Source of the DNA: Ruminococcus sp.
Lineage (GTDB): Bacteria; Bacillota; Clostridia; Oscillospirales; Ruminococcaceae
DNA: 42,737 nt
Assembly: GCA_023665505.1 (NCBI GenBank)
Contig: JAMPDU010000009.1
Span: forward strand, 1-42,737
Direction: 5' to 3'
Below the pieces are notes generated by a model. The model searched no databases. It was not told the origin of the DNA and saw nothing but the letters and a program-made list of their open reading frames with translations. A program made the translations under genes and the position numbers. Positions 5,734 to 23,902 of this stretch are shown here, in pieces (the stretch's first letter is position 1; each line of letters begins with the position of its first letter).

Positions 5734-5748
5734 ACGGAGGGAATGAAA

Positions 5749-6660
5749 ATGGCAGAATTATTCAGAAAAACGGCTTTGGACACAATGGCGACGCCGGAAC
5801 AGCTTGACAAGCAGGTGAAGATAATGCGTCCGTCGGTATGGATAATTTACGCGGCTCTCGCGGCGGCGGTTATTACCTTTGCGGTATGGAGCTTTACGTA
5901 CAAAATAACAAACGGCATGAAGATGTCGGGGGTTGTGTTTACAAACAACAATATAGTAAGCAGCACCGCCGACAGGGAGTGCAAGGTTACGGACGTTCTT
6001 GTTTCGGAGGGGGATTACGTTGAAACGGGCGACATTATCGCGGTGGTTTCAAACGACGGCTTGCTTGAGAAAATCGAGGAAAGCAAGTACAGGCTTTCTC
6101 TTATTGACGAAAGCGGCGGCGAGTACGCGCTGCTTTCGGAGCAGATTGAAAAGCTGGTTGACGCTTATATCGCGTCGACGGTGATAAAAAGCGGGACGAA
6201 CGGGTATATTCGGTCGGTAAAGCCCTGCGGGTCGGCGCTGTCGGCGGGGGACGCGGTTTCCTCGATTATGTCGGACGGCGGCTATAACGAGGTTTCGGCG
6301 TATGTTTCGTTGCAGGCGGCAAATTCTCTTTCTTTGGGAATGACGGCGCAGGTTTCGCCGTTTTACGCCCCGAGGGAGGAGTACGGCTATATGACTGGGG
6401 TTATCACGTCTATTTCGGACACGCCCGTTTCGGAGGAAAGCATTATCGCGAAAATGGGCACTATGTCCTATGTGGAGGGTATTCTCCCGAATGAAAGCTG
6501 CGTTGAGGTGAGAATAAGGCTTGACCTTGACGAAAATTCGGCGAATTCCTATAAGTGGTCAAACGGCAAGGGTGAAAAGCTCCCGGTGGCGATAGGTACG
6601 CAGTGCGCGGTAGTGATTGTGACGAGCGAGTATCTGCCGGCGGAAATGCTGATTTCGTAA
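5749..6660 (+). CDS. NHLM bacteriocin system secretion protein (HlyD-like)
   Basis: I place the start at ATG 5749, since GGAGGG sits about seven bases before it; the ATG at 5743 would be too close. The 303-residue protein has a short cytoplasmic N-terminus with the FRKTALDTMATPEQLDKQVK pattern of the NHLM HlyD subfamily, one membrane helix (about 29-50) and two lipoyl-like half-domains (VSEGDYVETGDIIAVV near 82-97; SAGDAVSSIM near 170) joined by a very short helical hairpin, followed by a barrel domain. The short hairpin fits a Gram-positive cell without an outer membrane. It is the membrane-fusion partner of the two ABC proteins that follow; the next start is 12 bp after its stop. Confidence 0.88.
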   Translation: MAELFRKTALDTMATPEQLDKQVKIMRPSVWIIYAALAAAVITFAVWSFTYKITNGMKMSGVVFTNNNIVSSTADRECKVTDVLVSEGDYVETGDIIAVVSNDGLLEKIEESKYRLSLIDESGGEYALLSEQIEKLVDAYIASTVIKSGTNGYIRSVKPCGSALSAGDAVSSIMSDGGYNEVSAYVSLQAANSLSLGMTAQVSPFYAPREEYGYMTGVITSISDTPVSEESIIAKMGTMSYVEGILPNESCVEVRIRLDLDENSANSYKWSNGKGEKLPVAIGTQCAVVIVTSEYLPAEMLIS

Positions 6661-8838: not shown

Positions 8839-11001
8839 ATGAGTACTTTTTCGGAAAAAATTAAACTGCGCAGGCGGCTTGACGCGGAACTTCTCGGCAG
8901 GTCGGCGGAGGGGGTGTACAATTCCCTCGGGAAAAGCCTGCGCCCCGCAAGGACTTCGGCTGCCGGAAACGGGGCGGTTTCGGAACTGTCGAGGATATGC
9001 GGGTATCTTAAAGAGGACGTTCCCGAATTCCCCGAAAAAATGGAGGACAGCGAGGAGCTGACGCAGGTTCTCATGACGGAGACGGGAATAATGCGGCGGA
9101 AAATAGTTACAGTGGGGAAATGGTGGAAAGACGGCTCGATGCCGCTATTATGCCAAAAAAAGGACGGCTCGGTACGGGCGGCAATTCCCGTGCCGTCTGG
9201 GGGATATATTTATTACACCGACGAGGGAAAGGCGGTCCCCCTAAACAAAGAGAGCGCAAAGGAGTTTCTGCCGACGGCGTACTGCTTTTACAAACCGTTT
9301 GAAAACCGCGCGCTGACCCTTAAGGATTTTTACAAATTTTTGGCGGGAGCTTTCGGCGCGGCGGATATTGTCTGCTTGCTGACAATAAGCCTTATCGCGG
9401 GGCTTATCGGAATGATTATGCCCCAGCTGAACAGGTTTATATTCAACAATGTCGTTCCGTCGGGAACGTCGGAACAGATTTTCGGAATAAGCGTGCTTAT
9501 AGCGGGCACGGTGGTTGTTTCCGCGCTGTTTGAGCTTTCACGTTCGGTGTGGGTTATGCGTATCGGCAACAAGCTGGAGCTGCTTGCACAAAGCGCGGTA
9601 TGGGCAAGGCTGATGAACCTGCCTGTATCGTTTTTCAAAAAGTACGATTCGGGCGACCTTACCCAAAGGGCGGCGGCGGTAAATCAGATATGCGGGATAC
9701 TGGGCGGTCAGCTTATTCCCACGCTGCTTGCCTCGATGTTTTCGTTTATTTATCTTTTTCAGATAAGCTCCATTTCTGCGGAAATGTTTTTGCCGTCGTT
9801 TATAATTGTTACGCTTATCGCGGCGGTGTACGTTCTCGGGGCGTTCCTTAGGGTAAAGCAGACAAAGCACAACAACGAGGTGAACGGGAAACTGTCAAGC
9901 GTAGTTTTTCAGCTTTTGGGAGGAATTACCAAAATCAAGGCGGCGGGGGCGGAAAGCCGCGCGTACTCAAAGTGGGCGGAGCTTTACGGAAAGCTGAAAA
10001 TAATGCCCCATACGTTTATTTCGCTGTCGTCGGCTATATCGAATTTTATAGTGTTCGGCGGCACGGTAATTCTTTACTGCACGGCTTACGCAAACGGACT
10101 GACAGCCTCCGATTACATAGGCTTTAACTCGGCGTACTCGCTGTTTACGGGGGCGGTGATTTCCATGGCGGGAATTACGGCTCAGGTCGCCTCTCTGCGC
10201 CCCGCCATAGAGATGCTTAGACCGATTATCGAGGAGACGCCCGAAAATTCGGGGTACAAAAAGCGGGTGGACAGGCTCGGCGGAGACATTGAGGTTAACA
10301 GGGTGAAGTTCCGCTATAATGAGGATATGCCGTATGTTTTGGACGATTTGAACATTCACATAAAGGCGGGGGAATATGTGGGCATAGTAGGCTCGTCGGG
10401 CTGCGGCAAGTCCACGCTGTTCAGGGTTCTGCTGGGGTTTGAAAGCCCCGAGTCGGGGGCGGTGTACTACGATTCGCAGGACGCGGAGGGGCTTGATTTG
10501 CGCAGCGTTCGCCGCAGGATAGGAGTTGTGCTCCAGAACGGAAAGCTGTTTTCGGGGGACATTTACTCGAATATTGTAATATGCGCCCCTTGGCTTTCGG
10601 TGGACGAGGCTTGGCAAGCGGCGGAGCGTTCGGGTTTCGCCGAGGATATACGGAAAATGCCCATGGGAATGTTTACCATGATTTCCGAGGGCGGCGGGGG
10701 ACTTTCGGGCGGTCAGCAGCAGCGGCTGCTTATAGCGAGGGCTTTGGCGTCAAACCCCGATATAGTTATGTTCGACGAGGCGACTTCCGCCCTTGACAAC
10801 ATTACTCAGGCTATGGTGGTGAAAACTTTGGAGGGTATGACAGCCACAAGAATTGTAATCGCTCACAGGCTTTCCACGATAAGAAACTGCTCGAGGATAA
10901 TTTATCTCGACAAGGGAAAGGTTGCCGAAGAGGGTACTTTTGAGGAGCTTATGGCTTTGGACGGGAAATTCGCCGAGCTTGCGAGACGGCAGACGGTGTA
11001 G
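8839..11001 (+). CDS. Second NHLM-type ABC exporter, without protease
   Basis: The frame opens at TTG 8821, but ATG 8839, eleven bases after GGAGG, gives the natural N-terminus and 720 residues. Residues 1-160 form a non-protease N-terminal domain, typical of the ATP-binding partner in NHLM systems; no Cys/His protease motif is visible. Six membrane helices follow (about 170-430). The ATPase has Walker A GSSGCGKST (near 517), LSGGQQQR (near 620), IVMFDEATSAL (near 640) and IAHRLS. It most likely pairs with the C39 exporter as a heterodimer. It lies 19 bp after that gene and 8 bp before the GNAT gene, so the four export genes and the acyl genes are probably co-transcribed. Confidence 0.9.
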   Translation: MSTFSEKIKLRRRLDAELLGRSAEGVYNSLGKSLRPARTSAAGNGAVSELSRICGYLKEDVPEFPEKMEDSEELTQVLMTETGIMRRKIVTVGKWWKDGSMPLLCQKKDGSVRAAIPVPSGGYIYYTDEGKAVPLNKESAKEFLPTAYCFYKPFENRALTLKDFYKFLAGAFGAADIVCLLTISLIAGLIGMIMPQLNRFIFNNVVPSGTSEQIFGISVLIAGTVVVSALFELSRSVWVMRIGNKLELLAQSAVWARLMNLPVSFFKKYDSGDLTQRAAAVNQICGILGGQLIPTLLASMFSFIYLFQISSISAEMFLPSFIIVTLIAAVYVLGAFLRVKQTKHNNEVNGKLSSVVFQLLGGITKIKAAGAESRAYSKWAELYGKLKIMPHTFISLSSAISNFIVFGGTVILYCTAYANGLTASDYIGFNSAYSLFTGAVISMAGITAQVASLRPAIEMLRPIIEETPENSGYKKRVDRLGGDIEVNRVKFRYNEDMPYVLDDLNIHIKAGEYVGIVGSSGCGKSTLFRVLLGFESPESGAVYYDSQDAEGLDLRSVRRRIGVVLQNGKLFSGDIYSNIVICAPWLSVDEAWQAAERSGFAEDIRKMPMGMFTMISEGGGGLSGGQQQRLLIARALASNPDIVMFDEATSALDNITQAMVVKTLEGMTATRIVIAHRLSTIRNCSRIIYLDKGKVAEEGTFEELMALDGKFAELARRQTV

Positions 11002-11009
11002 GTGAGCGT

Positions 11010-11897
11010 ATGATAATTGAGGGAAATTACAACGATTACCTGTTCCTTTTCGGCGAGGGCAGGACGGCTTATTCCGACTATTCGGCAAGGATTTCGGCTG
11101 CGGGCGGGAAGATTTACATTATGCTGCTTGACGGCGTTCCCGCGGGATATTTGTGCGCCGTTCGGGAGACAAATTCCGCAAGGCTTTGCTATGGGTTTAC
11201 AGTACCCGCTTACAGGGGGAGAGGCGTGTTTAAAAGCCTTGCTGCCCACGCGGCGGGGGAACTTCCCAAACCGATAGGATTTAATATTTTATCGGAAAGT
11301 AAATATTACGGCGGCGCGGTAAAGGCGTGTACTTCAATAGGCTTTGAGCGCAGCTCTGTCTGCAATGTGTATGGGTGCGCGGCGGAAGATTTCGCAAAAT
11401 GGAAAGAGTATATGAACGCGTCGGGAAACAGGCTGCGGGATTATTTGGAAAAACATGGATATTCCGCGGCAAGTTTCGCGGAGGCGGGCGGCGGCGTTTG
11501 CGGTACGCTGTATAATTCCGCGGAAAACGCTTTCGGGAACAGGCTTGATATAAAACCGTTTTTTGACAATCCCGAAAAAAATATGAACGGGGAAATGAGC
11601 TTTGTCACCCTTAAAGACGGCGAGCCGGCGGCGTACACATTGGTAAGCTGCCCCGACGGCAAAAACGCGGTTTTTGAGCAAATTTCCGCCTCGAAAAAAT
11701 ACGAGGGCAGCGGCTGCGTACTGCTATGCTTTGCGGGGTCAATGGAAAGTTTTGAGAAATTCGGCTGCAAACGGGCGTCCTACGCTATGTACGGCGAAAA
11801 CGTCCGGGCGAATTCGTTCAGGAAAAAACTTCTCGAGCGGGTCACCTCTTCGGTGAAACGTTCGGAAAATTATGTTTTAATTGGAGGTACAAAATGA
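11010..11897 (+). CDS. Tandem GNAT acyltransferase next to the acyl carrier protein
   Basis: The 295-residue protein reads as two GNAT folds. The first (about 1-130) has the acyl-CoA/pantetheine loop FTVPAYRGRGVFKSL and the FNILSESKYYGGAVKACTSI segment. The second (about 165-290) is more degenerate (QISASKKYEGSGCVLLCFA, then KFGCKRASYAMYGEN). GNATs bind acyl-pantetheine thioesters, and the next gene, overlapping by 4 bp, is an ACP. GNAT enzymes are known to attach fatty or polyketide acyl groups to RiPP precursors (GdvG in goadvionin, the selidamide maturases). I infer that this protein moves the acyl group from the ACP to the precursor peptide. Acetylation for self-resistance is the main alternative. 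Confidence 0.72.
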   Translation: MIIEGNYNDYLFLFGEGRTAYSDYSARISAAGGKIYIMLLDGVPAGYLCAVRETNSARLCYGFTVPAYRGRGVFKSLAAHAAGELPKPIGFNILSESKYYGGAVKACTSIGFERSSVCNVYGCAAEDFAKWKEYMNASGNRLRDYLEKHGYSAASFAEAGGGVCGTLYNSAENAFGNRLDIKPFFDNPEKNMNGEMSFVTLKDGEPAAYTLVSCPDGKNAVFEQISASKKYEGSGCVLLCFAGSMESFEKFGCKRASYAMYGENVRANSFRKKLLERVTSSVKRSENYVLIGGTK

Positions 11898-12166
11898 AAA
11901 ATCTGGAAAAAGAAATTTATGAGGGACTTATTTCAATATCGGAAACCGACGAAAGCGAAATCGAGGGGTTTACCTATGATTCGCCCATATTCAATTCACC
12001 GGACAACGGCGATGAAGTTTGCATGGGACTTGATTCCTTGGACGCACTGGAGCTTGCGGTTATGATATACGACGAGTGGGGGATAGACGTTCCCGCAGAG
12101 GATATGGGAATGTTAAAGACGGTTAACGCAATTGCCGATTATATCAGAGAGTGCAGGGAAGTTTGA
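11894..12166 (+). CDS. Acyl carrier protein dedicated to the cluster
   Basis: The 90-residue, strongly acidic, all-helical protein carries the phosphopantetheine attachment motif MGLDSLDALELAVMIYDEWG with Ser48. The later pattern DMGMLKTVNAIADYI matches helix III/IV of ACPs. It is longer than the primary fatty-acid ACP (about 77 residues) because of an insert before the motif (residues 20-42), which supports a special-purpose carrier. GGAGGT lies seven bases before the start and the gene overlaps the GNAT stop (ATGA). No phosphopantetheinyl transferase is encoded here, so it must be activated by a housekeeping enzyme. Confidence 0.9.
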   Translation: MKNLEKEIYEGLISISETDESEIEGFTYDSPIFNSPDNGDEVCMGLDSLDALELAVMIYDEWGIDVPAEDMGMLKTVNAIADYIRECREV

Positions 12167-12168
12167 GT

Positions 12169-13356
12169 ATGGAGAGAGTTGTTATAACGGGAATGGGCGC
12201 GGTCTGCGGGAACGCCTCGGACAAGGAGGAGCTGTACAGAGCCTGCGTTAAGGGGGTAAGCGGCATAAGGAAGTGCGGCGTTTTCGGTACGGAGGGTTTG
12301 CTTACCGATAAATTCGGCGAATGCGTGAAAATCGGCACGGGAAACCGCCTGAAAAAATTAATTGCCCTTTCGGGCGGGGAAATGCTTGCGGACAGCGGTT
12401 ACCGTGCCGAGGATATTTCCGCAATGGGCGGGAGGTGCAGGCTTTTTTACGGCACGCTGCTGTCGACGGCGGATTTCTACTATAATCATAGCCTTGAAAA
12501 GGCTGAGGGGAAACCCTGCGGGACAAGCCTTGCGGAGATGAATAATTACGCGGCTTACGCAAAAAAGTTATTCGGCGTAAGGGGCGGTATGAGCACGTCC
12601 TCCGCAGCGTGCGCGTCGGGGACGACGGCGGTGGGAATGGCGTTCGACTATGTAAGAAACGGACTTTGCGAGACGGCAATCGCGGGCGGCGCAGACCCCT
12701 TGACGGTTATAGCGGCGTACGGTTTCAACTCGCTTAAGTCCCTCAGCGGCGGCGTTTGCAACCCTTACGACGAAAGCCGCGACGGAATAAATATCGGAGA
12801 ATGCGGGGCGTTTTTCTTTTTGGAAACTCTTGAGCGCGCCCGCAAACGGGGAGCGAAAATTTACTGCGAAGTATGCGGTTACGGACTTTCCAACGACGCT
12901 TACCACATTACAAGCCCAGCTCCCGACGGCGGCGGGGCGTATGCGGCGATGCTTTCGGCGTTAAGGGACGGCGGGGTTTCCGCAGAGGATATTGACTATA
13001 TAAACGGTCACGGAACGGGTACGGAAATAAACGACAGCATGGAAATAAAAGCTGTATTAAGGCTTTTCGAGGGCAGCGGGAAAGTCCCCGCGCTGTCCTC
13101 CACGAAGGCGCTGATAGGGCACTGTATGGGCGCGTCGGGGGCAATCGAGCTGGCAAGCGTTATTATGGCTATGAAAAACAATAAGTACATACCCATGCCG
13201 AAAATTAAAAATCCCATTGATACGGGGGGCAGGATTTTTATTTCGGACAAAACACGGGATACGGATATTCGTTACGCGCTTTCAAACAGCTTTGCGTTTG
13301 CGGGGAACTGCGCGAGTATTCTGATAAAAAAATACGAGGGAGGTGAAACGCGGTGA
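12169..13356 (+). CDS. Beta-ketoacyl-ACP synthase (FabF-like), catalytic
   Basis: The start is ATG 12169, 2 bp after the ACP stop; the GTG at 12151 lies inside the ACP gene. The 395-residue protein is a full thiolase-fold condensing enzyme. The active-site Cys is C148 (TSSAACASGTTAVG), with H281 (INGHGTGTE), K313 and H318 (STKALIGHCMGASGA), the complete Cys-His-His set of the decarboxylating FabF/KS-alpha class. It should extend an acyl-ACP with malonyl-ACP. No malonyl transferase, dehydratase or enoyl reductase is present, so malonyl-ACP and any further reduction must come from primary metabolism. Its stop overlaps the GTG start of a second, degenerate KS gene, as in KS/CLF pairs of type-II polyketide systems. 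Confidence 0.9.
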   Translation: MERVVITGMGAVCGNASDKEELYRACVKGVSGIRKCGVFGTEGLLTDKFGECVKIGTGNRLKKLIALSGGEMLADSGYRAEDISAMGGRCRLFYGTLLSTADFYYNHSLEKAEGKPCGTSLAEMNNYAAYAKKLFGVRGGMSTSSAACASGTTAVGMAFDYVRNGLCETAIAGGADPLTVIAAYGFNSLKSLSGGVCNPYDESRDGINIGECGAFFFLETLERARKRGAKIYCEVCGYGLSNDAYHITSPAPDGGGAYAAMLSALRDGGVSAEDIDYINGHGTGTEINDSMEIKAVLRLFEGSGKVPALSSTKALIGHCMGASGAIELASVIMAMKNNKYIPMPKIKNPIDTGGRIFISDKTRDTDIRYALSNSFAFAGNCASILIKKYEGGETR

Positions 13357-14366
13357 GACCTGTTTACATTCACGGGGTGGGAATTATATCCCGGTGTGCC
13401 TGTTCGGCGGGGGAGCTTGCGGATATTTGCGCGGGTCGGAATTATTCCGCGGCAAAAGGAAAATTGGATTTTAAAACGGATATTCCGCCAGAGAAACTGA
13501 GACGGTGCGGCAGGTACGGCAAACTCGCCGCCGCCGCGGCGGAGCTTGCCCGAGCGGACGGGGGAATTCCCGATAACGCGGGAAAAACAGGAATTGGGGT
13601 GATTATTTCCACGGGGTACGGCGCGGCGGAGAGCAACATTCGGTTTTCCGACTCGGTGGCAAGGGGCAATCCCTCTTTGTGCAGCCCGGCGGTTTTTTCA
13701 CGGACTGTACCCAATTCCTGCGTGGGGCAGATTTGCGTTATCAACGGCTATAAAGGCGTAAGCACGCTGCTTATGGGGGGAGACCCTTTTGAGTACTCCG
13801 CGCTGCTGCTGAACACGGAAAGGGCGGATATGATTTTGGCGGGTTCGGTGGAGGAATATTCGGAGGAGCTTGCGGATTCGCTGACTGCGGCGGGAAATAC
13901 CGACGGCGTGGAAATATCCGAGGGCGCGGCGGTTTTTGCGCTTAGCGGGGACGAGACCACTCCGCGGTATTGCGGAATGACTAATTTCGGTTCGGTTTCG
14001 CTGGGGCGGTACCCTTACGTCCGCCGCGCCGACGGAGAAAATGCGGTACCCGCAATGGCGGAGGCGATAAAGGCGGCTTGCGGGGAAAAAATTCCCGACG
14101 CGGTTTTTACATCGGAAAACGGCGGATATTTTGACGGGTACGAAAGACAGGCGGTAAAAGCCGCTTTGGGGACGGTAAAATGTTTTGCGCCGAAAAAAAT
14201 ATTCGGCGAGTGCTTAGGCTGCGGATACGCTTTGAGCGCCGCGCTGGCGGCGGTTTCGCTTAAGACGGGCAGGCTGCCGCGTACGGGCTGCGGTAAACCG
14301 AAAAGTATTCTTGTTACGGGAATTGATACGGTGGGAAATTACTGCTGCGCTTTTTTGGAGGTGTGA
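13353..14366 (+). CDS. Ketosynthase-like protein without catalytic residues (chain-length-factor-like)
   Basis: The gene starts with GTG 13353, preceded by GGGAGG and overlapping the previous stop by 4 bp. The 337-residue protein keeps the thiolase-fold landmarks (VYIHGVGIIS at the start, GIGVIISTGYGAAESN, ILAGSVEEYSEELAD, ILVTGIDTVGNYCCAFLEV at the end) but has no active site. Where KS has TSSAACASG it has KGVSTLLMGG (Leu139 at the Cys position by eye), GHGTGT is replaced by ENGGYF, and GHCMGASG by GECLGCGY, which loses the second His. It is also about 60 residues shorter. This is the pattern of a KS-beta/chain-length factor forming a heterodimer with the catalytic KS. It could instead be a decaying copy, but an intact frame and tight coupling argue for function. 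Confidence 0.78.
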   Translation: MRPVYIHGVGIISRCACSAGELADICAGRNYSAAKGKLDFKTDIPPEKLRRCGRYGKLAAAAAELARADGGIPDNAGKTGIGVIISTGYGAAESNIRFSDSVARGNPSLCSPAVFSRTVPNSCVGQICVINGYKGVSTLLMGGDPFEYSALLLNTERADMILAGSVEEYSEELADSLTAAGNTDGVEISEGAAVFALSGDETTPRYCGMTNFGSVSLGRYPYVRRADGENAVPAMAEAIKAACGEKIPDAVFTSENGGYFDGYERQAVKAALGTVKCFAPKKIFGECLGCGYALSAALAAVSLKTGRLPRTGCGKPKSILVTGIDTVGNYCCAFLEV

Positions 14367-14367
14367 A

Positions 14368-15099
14368 ATGGGAATGCTCGACGGCAAACGGGTTCTGATA
14401 ATCGGCGTTTCGGGAGGGATAGGATTTTCCTGCGCGGAAAAATGCCTTGAGGAGGGGGCGGCGGTATGCGGGACGTTCAGAAATGAAAACGAAAGGCTCG
14501 CGGAGCTTTCCGAAAAATACGGGGAGAGATTTTCCCTCGCCCGCGTTGATTTGTCCGAAACGGAAAAAATCGGCACGGAAATAAAAGCCGCCCTGCGGAA
14601 ATTAAAAGGCGTCGACGCGATGATAAACGCGGCGGGAACGGTTTGCTCCGAATTGATTTTTTCGGCAAGGCGCGGGAATTTTGAAAAGGTGATTTCCTGC
14701 AATCTTACCGCGGCTTTTTTGGCGGTACAGAGCGTTATCGTGCCTATGAGCGCGGGGGGCGGTTCGATAATTAATATAAGCTCGGTTTTCGGCTTAAAGG
14801 GCGGAACGGGGCAGGCGGGGTACTGCGCGTCAAAGGCGGGGCTTATCGGTTTGACGAAAGCGGCGGCGGCTGAGCTTGCGCCGAAAATCCGCGTAAACGC
14901 CGTTGCGCCGGGATATATCGAAACCGCCATGACGGCGGGATTTGAGGAGGAGTACCGAAAAAAATGCGTTGAAAAAATTCCCATGAAACGTTTTGGTACG
15001 CCGGAGGAGACTGCCGATTTATGCGTGTTTCTCGCCTCCGATAAATCAAAATACATCACGGGGCAGACTTTTGTTATTGACGGTGGAATGTCGTTATAA
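14368..15099 (+). CDS. 3-oxoacyl-ACP reductase (FabG-like short-chain dehydrogenase)
   Basis: ATG 14368 follows TTTGGAGGTG and overlaps the KS-like end by no base. The 243-residue protein is a classical SDR: nucleotide loop GVSGGIG (residues 13-19), MINAAG (85-90), N112, S139 (INISSV), Y152 and K156 (YCASKAG), and the VNAVAPGYIETAM segment. Spacing of the catalytic Ser-Tyr-Lys matches E. coli FabG (S138, Y151, K155). It should reduce 3-oxoacyl-ACP to 3-hydroxyacyl-ACP. With one KS, a KS-like partner and no dehydratase, the chain delivered by this set is most simply a 3-hydroxy acyl group, unless housekeeping enzymes process it further. Confidence 0.88.
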   Translation: MGMLDGKRVLIIGVSGGIGFSCAEKCLEEGAAVCGTFRNENERLAELSEKYGERFSLARVDLSETEKIGTEIKAALRKLKGVDAMINAAGTVCSELIFSARRGNFEKVISCNLTAAFLAVQSVIVPMSAGGGSIINISSVFGLKGGTGQAGYCASKAGLIGLTKAAAAELAPKIRVNAVAPGYIETAMTAGFEEEYRKKCVEKIPMKRFGTPEETADLCVFLASDKSKYITGQTFVIDGGMSL

Positions 15100-15124: not shown

Positions 15125-15856
15125 ATGAAAAAAAGAATTGCGAAAGCGGCGGCAATTGTCTCCGCAATCGCGCTGGCGTGGGGACTTTCCGCATGCGGGA
15201 AACCGGACGTCACGGTAAACAACGCGGGAGGAGGTTACGAAAAAACAATCGACGGGAGCGGAACAATGTCGGAAAATGAATTTCAAATTCCCGAGGGGAA
15301 AAATTATAAATTTATTTTATTGGGAATAAACACAACCGATTCCGCCGTCAGGGTAAATATTTCGCCGTCGGGCGGCAGCGCGGCTGTCGAGGCTGACGAC
15401 AACGTTATAGGCGACTTTACGCTTGACGTTGACGAGCCGGCGGGCACGATTACGTTCAAAGCCGACCCTAAAACCATGTACAACAAAATAAACTGCAAAA
15501 TTTCAATTAACGCCGCGGTGAATTCCGTCAGGGCGGAGGGCGCGGCGGCGGTAACGTACAGTGCGCCAGAAAACGCCGATAATATCGAGGCGTTTTTAAG
15601 CGGCGCATGCAGCATGACGGCGGTTGGTGCGGCAAATACGGCGGTGTACGAATTATCGGGCGCGGCGATGCTGAAAGCGGAGGGACTTTCCGCGGAGGAA
15701 GTGACGGTGACGGTTTCGGGCAGCTCAAAAGCGGAGGTTTGCGCAAAAAAAATTCTCAACGCGGAGGCGTCGGGAGCGGGCAAGGTAACTTATTCGGGCA
15801 GTCCCGAAACGGTAAACGACAAGGTTTCGGGTGCTGCCGAGGTTACGAAAAAATAA
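15125..15856 (+). CDS. Lipoprotein with DUF2807 (GIN-domain)-like beta repeats
   Basis: ATG 15125, seven to eight bases after AAAGGAG, gives 243 residues with a lipoprotein signal (KKRIAKAAAIVSAIALAWG, then LSAC; Cys at about residue 24). The rest is Ser/Ala/Gly-rich with repeating short beta-strand units (FLSGACSMTAVGAANT, ELSGAAMLKAEGLS, TVSGSSKAEVCAKK, EASGAGKVTYSGS), the right-handed beta-helix pattern of DUF2807 proteins. It is exported and anchored outside the membrane. Immediately upstream of the precursor gene it could be an immunity or surface-docking protein, or a cell-envelope sensor. No direct evidence decides among these. Confidence 0.75.
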   Translation: MKKRIAKAAAIVSAIALAWGLSACGKPDVTVNNAGGGYEKTIDGSGTMSENEFQIPEGKNYKFILLGINTTDSAVRVNISPSGGSAAVEADDNVIGDFTLDVDEPAGTITFKADPKTMYNKINCKISINAAVNSVRAEGAAAVTYSAPENADNIEAFLSGACSMTAVGAANTAVYELSGAAMLKAEGLSAEEVTVTVSGSSKAEVCAKKILNAEASGAGKVTYSGSPETVNDKVSGAAEVTKK

Positions 15857-15924
15857 TTATTAACGGTTCAAATTTCCTGTCTTTCGGCAGGAGTTGAATA
15901 AATATTTTTTAGGAGGAATTTAAA

Positions 15925-16266
15925 ATGAGTAAAATTTCAGAATTTTACGCGAAGGCAATTTCCGACGAGGGTTCAAAGGCAAAGCTGGGAGAAATTCTCG
16001 GAGGGAAAAAAATCGGAGAGGCGAGCGACGAGCAGCTTGAAAAAATCGGCGTACTCGCAAAGGAGCTTGGCTTTGAAATCACCGTCGGCGAGGCGAAAGA
16101 GTACTTAAGCGGCGACGCGGAACTTGACGACGACGAGCTTGACTCCGTCGCGGGAGGAAAGGGAAACGTTGGTATTAACTGCACAAGCGGCGGCAGCTGG
16201 GGAGACCCGGTCGGCGGAGGAAATCCCGACGTTAAACCCACAACGACCACCGATGTAAGCGTATAG
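15925..16266 (+). CDS. RiPP precursor peptide with Nif11-type leader
   Basis: A strong AGGAGG precedes the ATG. The 113-residue product has an acidic, helical Nif11-like leader (residues 1-78) ending in the double-Gly motif DDDELDSVAGG, the expected cut site of the C39 exporter encoded upstream. The predicted core is 35 residues: KGNVGINCTSGGSWGDPVGG continuing into GNPDVKPTTTTDVSV. It holds one Cys (core position 8), one Trp (14), Lys at positions 1 and 26, eight Gly, and seven Thr/Ser in the last half including a run of four Thr. One Cys rules out multi-bridge lanthipeptide or typical ranthipeptide patterns. Lys1 is a tempting acylation site once the leader is removed. It is the only precursor candidate seen. 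Confidence 0.9.
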   Translation: MSKISEFYAKAISDEGSKAKLGEILGGKKIGEASDEQLEKIGVLAKELGFEITVGEAKEYLSGDAELDDDELDSVAGGKGNVGINCTSGGSWGDPVGGGNPDVKPTTTTDVSV

Positions 16267-16278
16267 CAGACAATTTAA

Positions 16279-16313
16279 AAATCAGCGCATATTTATACGG
16301 TATGCGCTGATTT
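16279..16313 (+). terminator. Hairpin between precursor and radical SAM genes (attenuator or stabiliser)
   Basis: AAATCAGCGCATA (16279-16291) and TATGCGCTGATTT (16301-16313) form a perfect 13-bp stem with a 9-nt loop, 13 bp after the precursor stop. No real T-run follows (TTTAAAATAAAA), so it more likely protects the 3' end of the precursor mRNA or partly attenuates read-through, giving more precursor than enzyme. This arrangement is common in peptide biosynthesis operons. Confidence 0.65.
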
Positions 16314-16334: not shown

Positions 16335-17747
16335 ATGAGATATTTTACATTAAAGTCCCGCTTTGCTTTGCGCGGCTGGAGCAATTTAAAATACGGTATT
16401 CTCGATTTGGAAAGCACGTCCGTGGCGGAAAGAGTAAAAAAACTTACAAAACGGCAGTTTGACGCGGTTGAGCTTATAACTTCGGGCGGAATTTCTCCCG
16501 ATGATGAAATTTTACCCGATACGGTAAGAAAAATGACTGAATACGCGGTTGAAAAAGGTTTTTTTGAAGAGTGCAATAAGCCCAAAAAACTTGAGGATTA
16601 TCAGAAATATAATTACTCAAAAGCGCGGTATACGCACACTCTTTTATGGTCGATAACGGGAAACTGCAATTTAAATTGCAGGCACTGTTATATTTCGGCG
16701 GGGGAAAATTGCTGCGGAGAACCCTCGCTTGAAAAATGTTATGAAATTATCGAGCAGTGCAAAAAAGCAAACGTTGGCACGGTCGCGCTTACGGGCGGCG
16801 AACCGCTTGTACGAAAGGATTTCTGGGAAATCGTCGACCGCTTGCTTGAAAATCATATTAAAATTCTTCAGGTTTTTACAAACGGAATTGCCGTAAACGA
16901 AAAATTTATGGACGAATTTGATAAAAGAAAAATTAATCCGAATTATTTTATGGTGAGCTATGACGGAGTTGGCTGCCACGATTGGCTCAGGGGCGTAAAA
17001 GGCGCGGAGGAAAAAGCGGTCAACGCAATTAAACTTATAAAAAGCAGGGGGTATGCGGTCTATGTTTCAACGTGTCTGCACATGGGGAATATTAATTCGA
17101 CGGCGGGAACCTACGAGCTTATGAAGTCGTTAAAAATCGACCATTGGAAAGCCGTGCCGATTGTGAATACGGGCAATTGGAAAAATCAAAATTGCGGGGA
17201 AATAAATTACGGTAAAATTTTTGACGGGTATATTGAATTGCTGAAAAAATACGCTGCCGACGGTATGCCTATGGATTTAAGCCTCGGCGGATTTTTCAGC
17301 GGCAGCCGCGCGGAAAAAAAATATACTGTTCCGTTCGCCTCGGGCTGCGGAAATTGCGAAAGATGTTCGCGGACATTGTGCGAAACGGCTTTTATTTCGG
17401 CGTATCTTCTCCCGGACGGACGGGTTCTGCCGTGCATTGCGATGAGCGGTTCGGAAATTGAAAAAATCGCTCCGAATATTTTTGACAACGGGCAAAGTCT
17501 CGAAAAGGCGCTCAGTAATTCGCCTGCGGATACGTACGCAAAATATACGTACAAAGATTTATTTGAGCGCAACGCCGAGTGCAATTCCTGCGAGAAAAAA
17601 TATATTTGCGGCGGCTGCCGCGCCAACGCTTTGGCGAACGGCGGATTTTTTGAGAAAGACCCGATTGCGTGCCAATTTTTTAAAGGCGGTTACGAAGAGA
17701 AAATCGAAAAAATTATGCGGGAGGAATTATATTGTTCTGCAAATTAA
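16335..17747 (+). CDS. Radical SAM/SPASM peptide maturase A
   Basis: The 470-residue protein has an N-terminal region (1-95) opening with FALRGWSNLKYGILD, a radical SAM TIM-barrel with the cluster motif C111-NLN-C115-RH-C118 and GGEP at 154-157, and a SPASM domain. SPASM cysteines are at 338, 341, 344, 349, 367, 416, 419, 425, 428 and 446, enough for two auxiliary Fe-S clusters. RiPP enzymes of this class make thioether, C-C or ether crosslinks, or epimerise residues. It starts 68 bp after the Nif11 precursor with AAGGAG before the ATG. Its substrate is most likely that precursor. The exact reaction cannot be read from the sequence. It is a paralogue of the next gene. Confidence 0.9.
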   Translation: MRYFTLKSRFALRGWSNLKYGILDLESTSVAERVKKLTKRQFDAVELITSGGISPDDEILPDTVRKMTEYAVEKGFFEECNKPKKLEDYQKYNYSKARYTHTLLWSITGNCNLNCRHCYISAGENCCGEPSLEKCYEIIEQCKKANVGTVALTGGEPLVRKDFWEIVDRLLENHIKILQVFTNGIAVNEKFMDEFDKRKINPNYFMVSYDGVGCHDWLRGVKGAEEKAVNAIKLIKSRGYAVYVSTCLHMGNINSTAGTYELMKSLKIDHWKAVPIVNTGNWKNQNCGEINYGKIFDGYIELLKKYAADGMPMDLSLGGFFSGSRAEKKYTVPFASGCGNCERCSRTLCETAFISAYLLPDGRVLPCIAMSGSEIEKIAPNIFDNGQSLEKALSNSPADTYAKYTYKDLFERNAECNSCEKKYICGGCRANALANGGFFEKDPIACQFFKGGYEEKIEKIMREELYCSAN

Positions 17748-19108
17748 ATAAGGATTTCTGCCTGCGCGGCTGGAAAAATTTAAAATACGCCGTAAACAGT
17801 TTAAATAACGGTTCGAGACCGATTGAAATTACCGAAAAACAGTTTGAAATTTTATCTTCGGTTTTTGAAATGCCGAAAGACGACGGTTTTTTTACGCGGT
17901 TATTTTTATCGGGAATTATTGAAAAATGTCCTGCAAACAGCGATATTTTTGATTATCAGAAATATTTTTATTACGGGAATTTATATTTTGACAGCGTAAT
18001 TTTTTCAATTACGGGAAAATGCAATTATAAATGCAGGCACTGCTCTGTCGGCGCGCCGGACGCGGTTATGGGGGAATTGAGCTTTGCGGAGCTTGAAAAT
18101 ATAATTATTCAAATTAAAGAATGCGGATTAAAAAATATTGTTTTAATTGGCGGAGAACCGCTTGTCCGCCCGGATTTTCTGCAAATTGCCGATAAAATTA
18201 TAAGCGAGGGATTGTTTGTTTCGTCAATTTATACCAACGGCTCTTTGATAACCGAAACGCTTTTGGACGAACTCGACGCGCGCGGAATTCACCCCGCTTT
18301 TCAGATAAGCTACGACGGATACGGATTTCACGATAAAATGCGCGGCGTAAAAGGCGCGGAAAAAAATTTTTTTAAAGTAATTTCTCTTTTAATTAAAAGA
18401 AATTACAAAGTAATTTGCTATATGAGCGTTACAAAAGAAAGCCTTGTTTCTCTTGAAAAAACGGTAGGCGTTCTTGCCGATTGCGGCGTCGGTTCGCTGA
18501 CGGTTTTTCCGCCGTTTGAATGCGGAAATTGGAAAAACGTATCGGATAATGAAAAGCTTTCTTTTGAAGAGGTTTTGGAGGCGTATATTGAGTATATTCC
18601 AAAATATATCGAGGCGGGTTTTCCGATTGACCTTAACCTTTACAGGATTGCTTATTTTGACGCAAAAAAAAGAAAATACAAACTTATTCCGAAGTCGGCG
18701 GTATCGGTTAATAATTTTCGTAATTCCCCTGCCTGCCGTACTTTCGGGACAGAATTGAATATATCGCCGAAGGGAATAATTTCTCCCTGTTACGCGATTA
18801 TGGACAGCGATTTTGTTAAAAATAATATGCCGAATATTCTTAAAAATTCTCTTAAATCGGCAATAACAAATTCCGCGTTTACACGGTGCGTTGAATTAAA
18901 ATCGGCGGATATTTTTGACGAAAACAAAAAATGCGGCTGCTGCGAATATAAACTTAAATGCGGCGGAGGCTGCCGTTCCTCCGCGCTTTTGTCGGAAAAT
19001 AATTTTTTCGCGCCGGACCCGGCGATGTGCCGCGTTTTTGAAAACGGGTATTATGAAAAGCTGCAAAAAGCGGTTTCAGACGGATTTAAAAAAATGAAAT
19101 TTCAGTAA
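17732..19108 (+). CDS. Radical SAM/SPASM peptide maturase B
   Basis: The gene starts at TTG 17732, seven bases after GGGAGG, and overlaps maturase A by 16 bp. The 458-residue protein is a paralogue: same N-terminal element (FCLRGWKNLKYAVNS), cluster motif C97-NYK-C101-RH-C104, GGEP at 140-143, and the shared HDKMRGVKGAEKNFF segment. Its SPASM domain is leaner: C335, C353, C401, C403, C404, C410, C414 and C433, lacking the C-x2-C-x2-C-x4-C group that maturase A has at 338-349. The two enzymes probably act in turn on the same peptide, with different reactions or sites, or as a heterodimer with one catalytic member. Coding sequence here is clearly more AT-rich than upstream of the precursor. Confidence 0.9.
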   Translation: MFCKLNKDFCLRGWKNLKYAVNSLNNGSRPIEITEKQFEILSSVFEMPKDDGFFTRLFLSGIIEKCPANSDIFDYQKYFYYGNLYFDSVIFSITGKCNYKCRHCSVGAPDAVMGELSFAELENIIIQIKECGLKNIVLIGGEPLVRPDFLQIADKIISEGLFVSSIYTNGSLITETLLDELDARGIHPAFQISYDGYGFHDKMRGVKGAEKNFFKVISLLIKRNYKVICYMSVTKESLVSLEKTVGVLADCGVGSLTVFPPFECGNWKNVSDNEKLSFEEVLEAYIEYIPKYIEAGFPIDLNLYRIAYFDAKKRKYKLIPKSAVSVNNFRNSPACRTFGTELNISPKGIISPCYAIMDSDFVKNNMPNILKNSLKSAITNSAFTRCVELKSADIFDENKKCGCCEYKLKCGGGCRSSALLSENNFFAPDPAMCRVFENGYYEKLQKAVSDGFKKMKFQ

Positions 19109-19132: not shown

Positions 19133-20065
19133 ATGCCGATTTCTATTTTAAAAGAAAATGAAATTATAAATGAATTTTTTTCACCTATTTCGGTTTCCGA
19201 CACGGATTTTTTTGAACCGTTCCGCTTGTCGTCAAATTTCGGAGATACGGCGTTTTCCATGTTTTACGCTTGGTCCGAAAGGTTTGATTACCGCCGCCGT
19301 TTTTATGATGATTTAATTGCCGTTACGGGGGTCGGGACAAGCGGAGAAAGAGGATTTTCCCTAATTCGCGGTTCAAAAAATATTTCAATTGAAAAAGCCT
19401 TTAATGAAATTTTTGAATTGTGCGAAAAATCCGATATTACGCCGATTTTTGAGTACGCCGAAGAGGGCGAACTGGCGGACTTCGCGCACACCGCGGAAAA
19501 AATCGGGAAAACCGCCGAAATATCTTTTATGGAAAAATACAGCGATTATATTTATAAAATAAGCGATTATTTATCGTTAAACGGCAATAAAAATAAATCA
19601 AAAAGAGGCGGATATAATTTTATTGAAAATAATTACCCGAATTTAAAATATGTTCGGTACGATAACGCTTTATACGGAGATTGCGTAAGCGTTTTCGGGA
19701 AATGGTGCGCCGTTCATAATTGCGGTAACTGCCGTTACGGCTGCGAACGGAAAGCCTTTGAAAAATTTATGGAAATTTACAACCCGAACCGTCATATTAT
19801 AGGAATGTCCTATAACGGCTGCAAGCCCCTTTCTTTCGCGGTTTGCGAGAAAATAAACAAAAATACCGTATGCTGTTATTTTCAGAAAAATGCGGAAAAA
19901 ATAAGGGGTCTTACCTATTGGTTAAGCAGAAAAATACTGTGCGAATTTGAAAACGCGGAATATTTAAATCTCGGCGAGGATATGGGAATGCCCGGCATAA
20001 TAACGGACAAATCCTCGTTTCGTCCATATAAAAAAATAAATAAATATACGGTGAGAATATTATGA
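19133..20065 (+). CDS. DUF2156-like (LPG-synthase C-domain fold) transferase
   Basis: The 310-residue protein resembles DUF2156 proteins, which share the double-GNAT fold of the aminoacyl-tRNA-dependent phosphatidylglycerol lysyltransferase C-terminal domain. Visible marks are LSSNFGDTAFSMFYAWSERF near the start, FMEKYSDYIYKISDYLSLNG (a frequent DUF2156 pattern), a KYVRYDN strand and the closing segment with YLNLGEDMGMPG. A Cys-rich insert around residues 190-205 (CAVHNCGNCRYGCERK) is unusual and looks like a metal-binding knuckle. It lies 24 bp after maturase B and overlaps the MFS gene by 4 bp. It could transfer an aminoacyl or acyl group to the peptide or to a lipid for immunity. Function is unproven; the fold call is moderately sure. 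Confidence 0.65.
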   Translation: MPISILKENEIINEFFSPISVSDTDFFEPFRLSSNFGDTAFSMFYAWSERFDYRRRFYDDLIAVTGVGTSGERGFSLIRGSKNISIEKAFNEIFELCEKSDITPIFEYAEEGELADFAHTAEKIGKTAEISFMEKYSDYIYKISDYLSLNGNKNKSKRGGYNFIENNYPNLKYVRYDNALYGDCVSVFGKWCAVHNCGNCRYGCERKAFEKFMEIYNPNRHIIGMSYNGCKPLSFAVCEKINKNTVCCYFQKNAEKIRGLTYWLSRKILCEFENAEYLNLGEDMGMPGIITDKSSFRPYKKINKYTVRIL

Positions 20066-23043
20066 GTAATTTTAAAAATTTTTGCGAAAAAAATATTGTG
20101 TTTATTTTAATTGCGGCTATAGTTTTGCTTTCGGCGTTTGTGACGGAATTTTCCGAGTGCGTCGGGAATAATCCTTTTTCGGATTATTTTTATTTGGAAA
20201 ACCCGGTTCAGGCGGTATTTTCGGAAAATAATAATTATTATCTGACCGATTCCTCGTATAAAATTATCGCGGCAAATAATAAAAACGAGCTTATATATAC
20301 CGTCGACGGCGGAAATCCCGATACCTCGTTTGATTATGCGGATTCATTCGCGGCGGACGGCGGCGTTTTGTACGTACACGACAAAAGCTACACCGCCGAC
20401 GGCAGCTATGCTTACCGCGAAAGAATACTGAAATTTACCGAGGACGGCAAAAAAAGAGAAATTTTATACGAAACCGAAACCCTTGACGAAAACGGGATAC
20501 AGATAATTTATCTCGACAGCCCGAGAATTATTGACGGAATATTTTATTTTTCCGAAATTGCCGCGGAGGGAATTTATGTGAAAAAAATTTGCGGAAATAA
20601 AGCCGAGGACGTTGCTTTTATGCCCCTTGAAAACGCTTATGATATTGCGGCGGACAGCTCGTTCAGCAACGAATTTGAAATATCCGCCGCGCTTATGAAC
20701 GGCGATATATACACCCGAAAAAACGGCGAAAATATTCTTACATACGACGCAAGCGAAACGCGTACCGAAGAGTACCGCAGCTTTGCCATGGAAACGGCGT
20801 ATGACAGCGGCGGCAGACTTTATTTCAACGATATGGGCAGGCGTAAAATTTTTGCCGCCGATGAAAAAGGAATTTACGAAATTTTTGAAAAAATATCCGA
20901 CGGTACTTCAAAAGAATTGGCGAAACGTCCTATTTATTCGGGGCTTATTGTTTCTGAAAACGCGGTTTCGTTTCTCACCTCGGAATATGAATACGACCAA
21001 AACGCGGACGAGCCGTCCTACCGCTACAATATCGAGGCGTTAGAACCGGACGGTACTCAAATTTTTTACGGAAATAAAATTAAAATTTCATTAAAAAGGC
21101 GAATTACGGTTTTTGCGGTTTATTTTGCAATTTTAATATGCGTAATTATCGGAATTTATTCCGTTATAAAAATAATATCGGTTTTCGGCTGCGTAGGCGC
21201 AAAGCGGTCGGGGACGCAGTTTATCGTACTTTTAACCGCGGTTGCTGCGACGGTTGCGGCGTCATATTCGCTGTTTAAGGTGTGCAACGAAAGATTTATG
21301 AATACGTCTTCGGACAAACTGGCGAATATCGCTTATTTAATCGAGGCGAAAATAAATAAAAATACCGTTAAGGAAATTAATTCGCCCGATAAATATTTTG
21401 ACGCGGATTATTCCGAGCTTAACGAAACAATATCGGGAATTTTAAAAAGCGAAATAAATAAAAACGACAATATTTACGCGGTAATTTACAAGGTTTTTGA
21501 CAATATAATCTGCGAGGTTTACCGCAGCGATATGTACCACGAAATAATGTACCCAATGGCGGGTGAATATTCGGGGTCGATAGAAAGCCGCGTCGCGGAA
21601 GAGGGAAAGGCGTATATTTCCGAAAATTCCGCGCTTTCCGAGGGCAGCTACAGCCTTGCTTTAATTCCGTCGTACGGCGAAGACGGCGAATTGCTGGCTT
21701 TTATCGAAGTGGGTACGGACTACAATTATTTTTTGCGGGAAAACAACGCTTTGTACAGAAAATTTCTTATCGCGTCGGCGATGACGGTTATTGTAATTAT
21801 GCTTTTATTTTCGGAATTTGCCAACGGAATTAACGCGTTCAAGCAAAAAAAGTCCGCCGAAAAAACTCCTCCCGACGTTATCCGCCCGATAGCTTTTATG
21901 ATTTTTTTCACGGCGAATATAACCACGGCGTTTCTCCCAATTTACGGCAAATCCTTGTGGGACGAGGATTTCCCCGTTCCCGCGGAGGTAGCGGCGGCGT
22001 TTCCTCTGTCGGCGGAATTGATATGCTCGGCGCTGTCGGCGTTAATTTGCGGATTTATAATTAAAAAAATCGGCATAAAATCAATGTGCGTAATCGGCGC
22101 GTTATTTTATATCGGCGGAAATATTTTATCGGCTTTTTCGGCGAATTTGTGGATTTTAATTGCCGCCAACAGCGTCTGCGGAATAGGCGGCGGTCTGCTT
22201 ACAATATCGGTAAACACGTGGATTACGGGTTTCGAGGACGAGGCAAATCAAAATAAAGGCTTTGTACATTACAACGCGGCGTTCCTTGCGGGAATGAACT
22301 GCGGAACGGTTATAGGCTCTCTTTTGTGGGAAAGTTTCGGCGTGACTGCCGCGTATTTTGCCGCCGCTTTCGGAGGGTTGTGCGTAATAATTTTTACAAT
22401 TTTGCTTATGGATAAAAAGCGGGTAATTTCAAATAATTCAAATAAAATTAAAAAAGAAAAGCCGCTGCTTAGGGACTTTTTCACTCCCTCGGCAATAAAA
22501 ATGTTTGTGTGCGTTACAATTCCGTACCTGATTTGCGCGTCGTTTTTAAGCTATTATTTCCCGATTGTCGCCGAGGAAAATTTGCTTTCCGCGGCGGAAA
22601 TATCAATGGCGTTTTTAATCAGCGGCGTAATTTCAATTTACGCGGGCGCGTCGATAGGGGAACGCGTCACCGAAATTCTCGGCGTTAAGAAAACAATGAT
22701 ACTCGCGTCTTTTATTTACGCGGCGGCTTTGCTGTACCTTGCGATTAATCCGTCGATCGCGAGCTGCTACACGGTAATCGTATTTTTCGCGGCAGCCGAC
22801 AGCTTTGGATTGTCGGCGCAGTCCGTATATTTCGCGGCAATGCCCGAAGTGAAAAAAATCGGCGCAAGCCGCGCTCTCGGAATAAACAGCACAATTGAAA
22901 GCATAGCCTCCGCAAGCGGTTCGGTAATTTTCGGCGGCGCGCTTTTAATGGGCGAGCAAAAGGGTATTTTACTTATCGCCGCTGTTTTTGCGGGACTTTT
23001 ATTGCTGTACGTGATTGGAGGCAGGAAAAATGAGAACGCTTAA
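20062..23043 (+). CDS. Large sensor-MFS fusion (propeller-like and Cache-like domains plus transporter)
   Basis: The 993-residue protein is an uncommon fusion. Order: one membrane helix (about 11-28); a ~310-residue extracytoplasmic region of repeated short beta units (for example NYYLTDSSYKIIAAN, GRLYFNDMGRRKIFAAD) resembling a beta-propeller; two helices (about 348-370 and 388-404); a Cache-like extracytoplasmic domain (about 405-570, with IYAVIYKVFDNIICEVYR and AFIEVGTDYNYFLREN); a helix (573-592); then a major facilitator domain (about 610-990) with GIGGGLLTISVNTWITGF. It overlaps the preceding gene by 4 bp. In this cluster it may export, import or sense the modified peptide or an intermediate. 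MFS proteins with Cache domains exist in clostridia, but the added propeller-like region is striking. Confidence 0.75.
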   Translation: MSNFKNFCEKNIVFILIAAIVLLSAFVTEFSECVGNNPFSDYFYLENPVQAVFSENNNYYLTDSSYKIIAANNKNELIYTVDGGNPDTSFDYADSFAADGGVLYVHDKSYTADGSYAYRERILKFTEDGKKREILYETETLDENGIQIIYLDSPRIIDGIFYFSEIAAEGIYVKKICGNKAEDVAFMPLENAYDIAADSSFSNEFEISAALMNGDIYTRKNGENILTYDASETRTEEYRSFAMETAYDSGGRLYFNDMGRRKIFAADEKGIYEIFEKISDGTSKELAKRPIYSGLIVSENAVSFLTSEYEYDQNADEPSYRYNIEALEPDGTQIFYGNKIKISLKRRITVFAVYFAILICVIIGIYSVIKIISVFGCVGAKRSGTQFIVLLTAVAATVAASYSLFKVCNERFMNTSSDKLANIAYLIEAKINKNTVKEINSPDKYFDADYSELNETISGILKSEINKNDNIYAVIYKVFDNIICEVYRSDMYHEIMYPMAGEYSGSIESRVAEEGKAYISENSALSEGSYSLALIPSYGEDGELLAFIEVGTDYNYFLRENNALYRKFLIASAMTVIVIMLLFSEFANGINAFKQKKSAEKTPPDVIRPIAFMIFFTANITTAFLPIYGKSLWDEDFPVPAEVAAAFPLSAELICSALSALICGFIIKKIGIKSMCVIGALFYIGGNILSAFSANLWILIAANSVCGIGGGLLTISVNTWITGFEDEANQNKGFVHYNAAFLAGMNCGTVIGSLLWESFGVTAAYFAAAFGGLCVIIFTILLMDKKRVISNNSNKIKKEKPLLRDFFTPSAIKMFVCVTIPYLICASFLSYYFPIVAEENLLSAAEISMAFLISGVISIYAGASIGERVTEILGVKKTMILASFIYAAALLYLAINPSIASCYTVIVFFAAADSFGLSAQSVYFAAMPEVKKIGASRALGINSTIESIASASGSVIFGGALLMGEQKGILLIAAVFAGLLLLYVIGGRKNENA

Positions 23044-23902
23044 ACACCCGTCCTATAACGAAATAAATCGGTTAAAGCAAATATGGCTCGAGGGTTTTCC
23101 CGACGACGGGGAGGGATACTGCGACTTTTATTTTGAAAAATATTTCCGTCCCGAAAGATGTTTTGCGGTGTACAATGAATTTGAAATCGAGTCGGCGGTC
23201 CATTGGTTTGAGGCGTACCGCAAAGGCTCGGACGGAAATAAATATAAATTTATTTTTCCCTACGCGGGCGCAACTTTAAAAAAATACAGAGGACATAAAA
23301 ATCTGCAATTTATGATCGAGGGCTGCGATAATTTTTCAAAGAAAAACGGTTACGCCGGAATGGTTTTCGCAGCGGCGGACGAATTGGTGTATTTGTACGA
23401 TAAATGGGGCTACAGCAGGATTTCAAGGCTTAATACGTACACCTTTGACGTAAGCCGCCGCAGTGAAATTTTAAATTGGAAAATCTGTCCCTTTGAAAAA
23501 TTTAAAATTATGAGAAATAATTTTCTCGGCAAAATCGGGAACTGTTTTTATTGGTGCGGCGACGCCGAAAAATATATGTACGACGACGTTTTTACAAAAG
23601 GAAAAATTCTTTTCTGCGAATATAACAATACCGAATATTTCGCGGTCTGTACAATGGAAAAAAACTGCCTTATTATACGCGAAACAGATTTCCCCCTTGA
23701 CAATTCGGAGCTTTTGACCGAAAGCGTTTGCGGGCATTTTAATTATTTCGGCAGGGTGAGTATTTATACTCATAAAAAGAATTTGCAGCCCGCGGGCGAA
23801 TATGTTTTCGAGGATATTTATTACGGTCACTATGGGCTTAATTTTAATTTCCCCGGCAGCGAACGGCTCGGTTCAGCGTACATAAATTTAATTGCGGATT
23901 AA
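23030..23902 (+). CDS. GNAT-like acyltransferase, last gene of the cluster
   Basis: The longest frame begins at TTG 23015, but that codon is part of the TTGGAGG ribosome-binding site; ATG 23030 is the better start, giving 290 residues and a 14-bp overlap with the MFS gene. The protein looks like a two-lobed GNAT related to the Eis-like group: LKQIWLEGFPDDGEGYCDFYF at the start, an AGATLKKYRGHKNLQFMIEG loop at the pantetheine site, AADELVYLYDKWGYSRISRL, and a C-terminal degenerate half. It lacks a clear R-x-x-G-x-G but has KYRGHK in its place. It may be a second acyl transfer or acetylation (self-protection) step. It is probably the end of the operon, since a hairpin and a convergent gene follow. 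Confidence 0.65.
   Translation: MRTLKHPSYNEINRLKQIWLEGFPDDGEGYCDFYFEKYFRPERCFAVYNEFEIESAVHWFEAYRKGSDGNKYKFIFPYAGATLKKYRGHKNLQFMIEGCDNFSKKNGYAGMVFAAADELVYLYDKWGYSRISRLNTYTFDVSRRSEILNWKICPFEKFKIMRNNFLGKIGNCFYWCGDAEKYMYDDVFTKGKILFCEYNNTEYFAVCTMEKNCLIIRETDFPLDNSELLTESVCGHFNYFGRVSIYTHKKNLQPAGEYVFEDIYYGHYGLNFNFPGSERLGSAYINLIAD

Follow-up and report, generated by a model that had tools for sequence, protein, structure and literature searches.

A putative lipidated, radical-SAM-modified RiPP encoded beside a type II ketosynthase pair in Ruminococcus sp.

Known RiPP lipopeptides are few, and those named in the literature covered are lanthipeptides. Clusters of the prochlorosin type combine a conserved leader with several diverse cores, and lipolanthines, goadvionins and lipoavitides come from actinomycetes, whereas the DNA considered here belongs to the Clostridia: it is a stretch of 42,737 nucleotides from Ruminococcus sp. 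(contig JAMPDU010000009.1), called the window throughout. By the titles cited in PMC13060382, lipoavitides rely on a fatty acid synthase of the non-modular type, and goadvionins are hybrids of polyketide and peptide. The tandem GNAT NpuN acylates the Lys1 directly after the GG of a precursor with a Nif11 leader (PMC13060382). Searches of open-licence papers turned up no lipidated RiPP made with both SPASM enzymes and a type II ketosynthase (KS) pair of its own. Judged by the genes for both chemistries, the precursor encoded in the window is probably a lipidated, radical-SAM-modified RiPP, which if true would bring together, in anaerobes, radical-SAM chemistry and a dedicated synthesis of acyl chains.

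The precursor gene (15925..16266, plus strand) encodes 113 aa, was recognised from its sequence and a leader profile, and is preceded on the same strand, at a spacing of 8 bases, by an AGGAGG Shine-Dalgarno sequence (15911..15916). Residues 1-78 form the leader, ending in VAGG (aa 75-78), and residues 79-113 the 35-aa core KGNVGINCTSGGSWGDPVGGGNPDVKPTTTTDVSV, which holds one Cys (position 8), one Trp, eight Gly, DP and NP, and TTTT close to the C-terminus, just as an earlier note on this DNA had read it. The same note called it a Nif11 precursor, of which the RiPP precursor stands, with nine homologues, and the family name holds below the curated cut-offs only: the leader matches TIGR03798 (Nif11 leader) with E=9.4e-7 and a score of 29 bits where the cut-off is 32.3, and Pfam Nif11 (PF07862) with 15.3 bits against 23.8. 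It appears credibly Nif11-like, at sub-threshold scores, and is not counted here as a Nif11 family member; because of those scores a PF07862 profile search of its own genome came back empty. Among viral contigs no relatives of the precursor were found, and nothing supports a 101-aa antisense ORF as a gene. A hairpin with a 15-bp stem between the precursor gene and SAM1 (16279..16313, plus strand, −20 kcal/mol, z −6.4) is likely an attenuator or mRNA stabiliser, and another (z −3.4) stands at the equivalent place after the precursor of G019, a rabbit-gut metagenome assembly (contig CANRFB010000049.1).

All genes of the operon and its flanks, from an integrase (3329-4447) upstream to GNAT2, lie on the plus strand. 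After the integrase come a substrate-binding lipoprotein (SBP, start 4522), an HlyD-like adaptor (5743..6660, sub-threshold HlyD and biotinyl-lipoyl matches), the C39 peptidase-ABC exporter PCAT (6672..8819), proposed to cut after the GG of the precursor, and a second ABC exporter subunit (ABC2, 8839..11001). The lipid block comprises GNAT1, a tandem GNAT and proposed N-acyltransferase (11010..11897), an acyl carrier protein (ACP) with an LDSL motif (11894..12166), a KS with Cys-His-His intact (12169..13356), a KS-like partner of the chain-length-factor type (CLF, 13353..14366), in which all of Cys-His-His is missing both in the window and in G019, and a FabG-type ketoreductase (14371..15099). 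The operon showed no gene for a dehydratase, enoyl reductase, malonyl transferase or phosphopantetheinyl transferase, all of which would presumably come from the host. A DUF2807 lipoprotein (15125..15856), possibly an immunity or surface protein, stands directly upstream of the precursor here and of those in G017 and G221. Beyond the two radical SAM genes lie a stand-alone protein of the LPG_synthase_C (DUF2156) family (LPGS, 19133..20065), possibly an aminoacyl-tRNA-dependent transferase, an MFS protein of 993 aa (20062..23043) and GNAT2 (23030..23902, a weak Acetyltransf_9 match). The MFS domain begins at about aa 610, and the long N-terminal extension of some 600 aa before it has no Pfam match. 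An integrase 41% identical to that of the window occupies the equivalent position in G019, which suggests that the operon lies in a mobile island; a search of the window for tRNA gave none.

Both SPASM enzymes that the earlier note had invoked are present, as SAM1 (16335..17747) and SAM2 (17732..19108), 33% identical to each other. Their radical SAM and SPASM cysteines are kept in alignment, and they match the Radical_SAM profile well over its cut-off and Pfam SPASM slightly under. The structure model of SAM1 (pLDDT 90) has in residues 1-80 three strands and three helices in a winged-helix-like layout, which resembles PqqD-type RREs, and in homologues of SAM1 a CDGE motif of the PqqD kind occurs. 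SkfB, SuiB and then TigE are among the nearest solved structures, SPASM RiPP maturases that have the overall fold, N-terminal domain included, in common with SAM1, although at 13-16% identity only, so that their reactions are not transferable to it.

Nine close homologues of the precursor occur in three other genomes (G017, G019 and G221), six of them in tandem in G017, and with that of the window they make a family of ten; the leaders from G019 and G221 are identical to the window leader at 51-53 of 78 positions. Lys1-Gly2 follows straight after the GG in eight of the ten, Gly2 is kept in nine and exactly one Cys is present in nine, the pattern being Lys1-Gly2, then 4-16 variable residues, the single Cys and a Gly-containing tail. 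Exceptions are the G019 core, which lacks Cys and has Lys at position 6 only, and G221 copy a, which begins FNGK. In 20000 shufflings of the cores the observed Lys1 count was never reached, and one Cys in at least six of the seven less redundant cores has a P of about 0.007; Cx2G, found in 6/10 cores, is not significant after near-identical paralogues are dropped (p 0.09). Lys1 and the lone Cys are retained in almost every close relative and so look like working parts of the core. The alignment of homologues that had been proposed for finding conserved positions so yields Lys1, Gly2 and the Cys; Cys8 holds up as a candidate site, as does Lys1, encoded beside a lipid-making block and a GNAT, as a plausible acyl acceptor. 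The Trp, the DP/NP turns and the Thr run, put forward with them, are private to the window core within the family and were dropped as modification sites, since unconserved in the homologues.

A conserved leader over a random core, which the earlier note had named as evidence against its reading, seemed to be the case with four homologues, most pairs among four precursors being no more alike than shuffled sequences, and was overturned by the tandem set of G017. Across the cores of precursors 4-6 in that set pN is 0.06-0.08 against a pS of 0.35-0.61, and amino-acid-changing differences are equally rare in core and leader (small counts); by these sequence differences the cores of the three paralogues show purifying selection, and for that reason the core is held not to be random. 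The six precursors (L115:3804-5922) share a single type of leader, followed by varied cores with Lys1 and a single Cys, the contig ending just past the last copy, and are natural variants for asking which core residues matter. Degenerate copies were also seen. One in G221 (L033:7680-8010) has an in-frame stop near the N-terminus, VAGS in place of VAGG and a PVIRRYIDR-type core end, and just upstream of the G019 precursor lies the remnant of a second one (YAKALADETLKQRFG-like, L032:1499-1690).

Within the genus genomes drawn, SAM1 occurs besides the window in G019 only, and among 398 genomes of the family, a draw that covered only part of the genus, SAM1-type enzymes occur in 22, G221 being the closest outside the genus. 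The G019 operon is split over two contigs, each ending in SAM1, and runs SBP-HlyD-PCAT-ABC2-GNAT1-ACP-KS-CLF-FabG as in the window, bar one ORF inserted between ABC2 and GNAT1, and then precursor-SAM1-LPGS-MFS-GNAT2; SAM2 and the DUF2807 gene are absent. The inserted ORF (L032:5820-6662), absent from the window, has an HECTH motif of the HExxH type. In G221 two intact precursors and the broken copy stand beside SAM1, LPGS and MFS, the last two in the same order as in the window and G019; SAM2 is not present in this cluster, and in the genome, which is 97% complete, no GNAT1 and only a single KS were found. G017, which came from a later leader-profile search among relatives of G019, has KS-CLF-FabG-DUF2807 followed by the six precursors, and neither GNAT1 nor a SAM gene was found in this genome, which is 74% complete and whose contig ends after the precursors.

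GNAT1 homologues are rare, being present in 4/398 family genomes and, at the level of the order, in one further genome (G762); none more was found among relatives of G762, and none in plasmids. Most of them adjoin Nif11-type precursors, as those of G019, G350 (locus C3), G379 and G762 do. At locus C3 (L088:7694-9371) four precursor copies with a common leader adjoin GNAT1, their cores beginning KTND, GKMT, KVGK and KSAD, with C39-ABC genes nearby and no radical SAM gene matched in the 20-kb stretch around; of the other two GNAT1 loci of G350, one has a degraded precursor only and the other none that could be seen. In G379 the precursor next to GNAT1 has a broken frame, and a SAM2-like gene comes after it. 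When all GNAT1 clusters are taken together, a Lys close to the N-terminus of the core, a feature chosen post hoc, is significant per core and not per genome, and it was set aside; in GNAT1 clusters beyond the close family Lys1 enrichment is not significant per genome (p 0.155). G350 and G379 also have a KS fused to a KS-like domain in an ORF of about 780-800 aa, then FabG (L103:9482-11815 and L104:8235-10628), at a different locus where no precursor was seen, and these were rejected as counterparts of the window block. The structure model of GNAT1 resembles tandem GNATs at low confidence (pLDDT 62), its weaker matches including aminoacyl-tRNA-dependent peptide synthases.

The lipidated, radical-SAM-modified reading is carried by the GG leader, the C39-ABC exporter, the KS/KS-like/ACP/FabG/GNAT1 block and the SPASM enzymes in one operon, in an order kept in G019. 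SAM1 (and SAM2) would bind the leader through the RRE-like N-terminal domain and then act on the core. The single conserved Cys or a position next to it is the likeliest target, and one thioether ring there, for example, could rather tentatively be proposed. The KS, its inactive partner and FabG would assemble a short acyl chain, perhaps a 3-hydroxy one, on the ACP, and on balance it seems that GNAT1 moves the chain onto Lys1, more likely onto the epsilon amine given the NpuN precedent, the alpha amine being possible after cleavage; PCAT would then remove the leader at the GG and export the lipopeptide. That a type II ketosynthase pair, GNAT transfer to Lys1 and radical-SAM modification at the single Cys together define a class of lipopeptide RiPPs in Clostridia is conceivable, at somewhat under an even chance. 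Against Lys1 as the acylated residue stands G221, which keeps SAM1, single-Cys precursors and one Lys1 core with no GNAT1 found, so that Lys1-Gly2 may serve leader cleavage instead. The lipidated, radical-SAM-modified reading is also weakened by G019, where the lipid genes accompany a core that lacks Cys and has Lys at position 6 only, by the Lys1 enrichment that is not significant per genome beyond the close family, by the low confidence of the GNAT1 model, and by G017, whose 74% complete genome yielded neither GNAT1 nor a SAM gene.

The G221 arrangement, precursors with SAM1, LPGS and MFS, one core starting KG and the lipid block not found, is also what favours a product modified by radical SAM enzymes only, with KS, ACP, FabG and GNAT1 making or attaching a separate lipid and Lys1-Gly2 kept for PCAT cleavage. 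This is unlikely, as the lipid block lies inside the operon with its genes overlapping or nearly abutting, G019 has them in the same order, and relatives of GNAT1 adjoin Nif11-type precursors in other genomes. That Lys1 is modified mainly by LPGS or GNAT2 rather than by GNAT1, through addition of a tRNA-derived amino acid or a small acyl group, is decidedly improbable: LPGS is in all three SAM1 clusters, including that of G221, for which no GNAT1 was found, and aminoacyl-tRNA-dependent peptide synthases fall within the same broad fold, but LPGS could equally serve self-protection through membrane lysinylation and has no direct link to the core. Least probable is a classic sactipeptide or ranthipeptide without lipid. 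SPASM radical SAM maturases, the mark of sactipeptides, are present, and SkfB, a sactipeptide maturase, ranks with the solved structures closest to SAM1 in both sequence and fold; the cores however have one Cys each, none in G019, and lipid genes lie within the operon. Many Cys, the mark of Cys-rich ranthipeptides, are likewise not seen in the core, in line with the earlier exclusion of that class.

Compared with known systems, the lipidated, radical-SAM-modified reading is closest to the selidamides and nostolysamide (NpuA/NpuN; PMC13060382, PMC9505594), with which the window has in common a GG leader (Nif11 for NpuA), a C39-ABC transporter, a tandem GNAT (NpuN there) and Lys1 directly after the GG. 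Selidamides are marked by a GNAT-superfamily enzyme whose gene accompanies that of a RiPP precursor, as GNAT1 does here, and by a fatty acyl group on the side chain of a Lys or Orn. The best reading is that the window system operates in the manner of a GNAT-lipidated RiPP, and it is not counted here among the selidamides. Those peptides bear LanM rings, whereas the window has SPASM enzymes and no lanthipeptide synthetase, class III included, among the operon proteins scanned, which agrees with the earlier view that the product is not a lanthipeptide; and the acyl group of phaeornamide comes from primary metabolism, in contrast to the dedicated KS/KS-like/ACP/FabG set of the window (PMC13060382, PMC9505594). 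In lipolanthines (microvionin), goadvionins and lipoavitides, as PMC13060382 cites them, a GNAT joins an acyl group to a RiPP, as proposed for the window, but by the same citations these are N-terminally acylated class III lanthipeptides, and the window combines radical SAM enzymes with a Nif11-like leader. Prochlorosin-type Nif11 precursors (PMC10783134) likewise have a leader that is conserved while the cores within a cluster are several and diverse, whereas here no lanthionine synthetase is among the operon proteins scanned, and Lys1 and the single Cys are kept.
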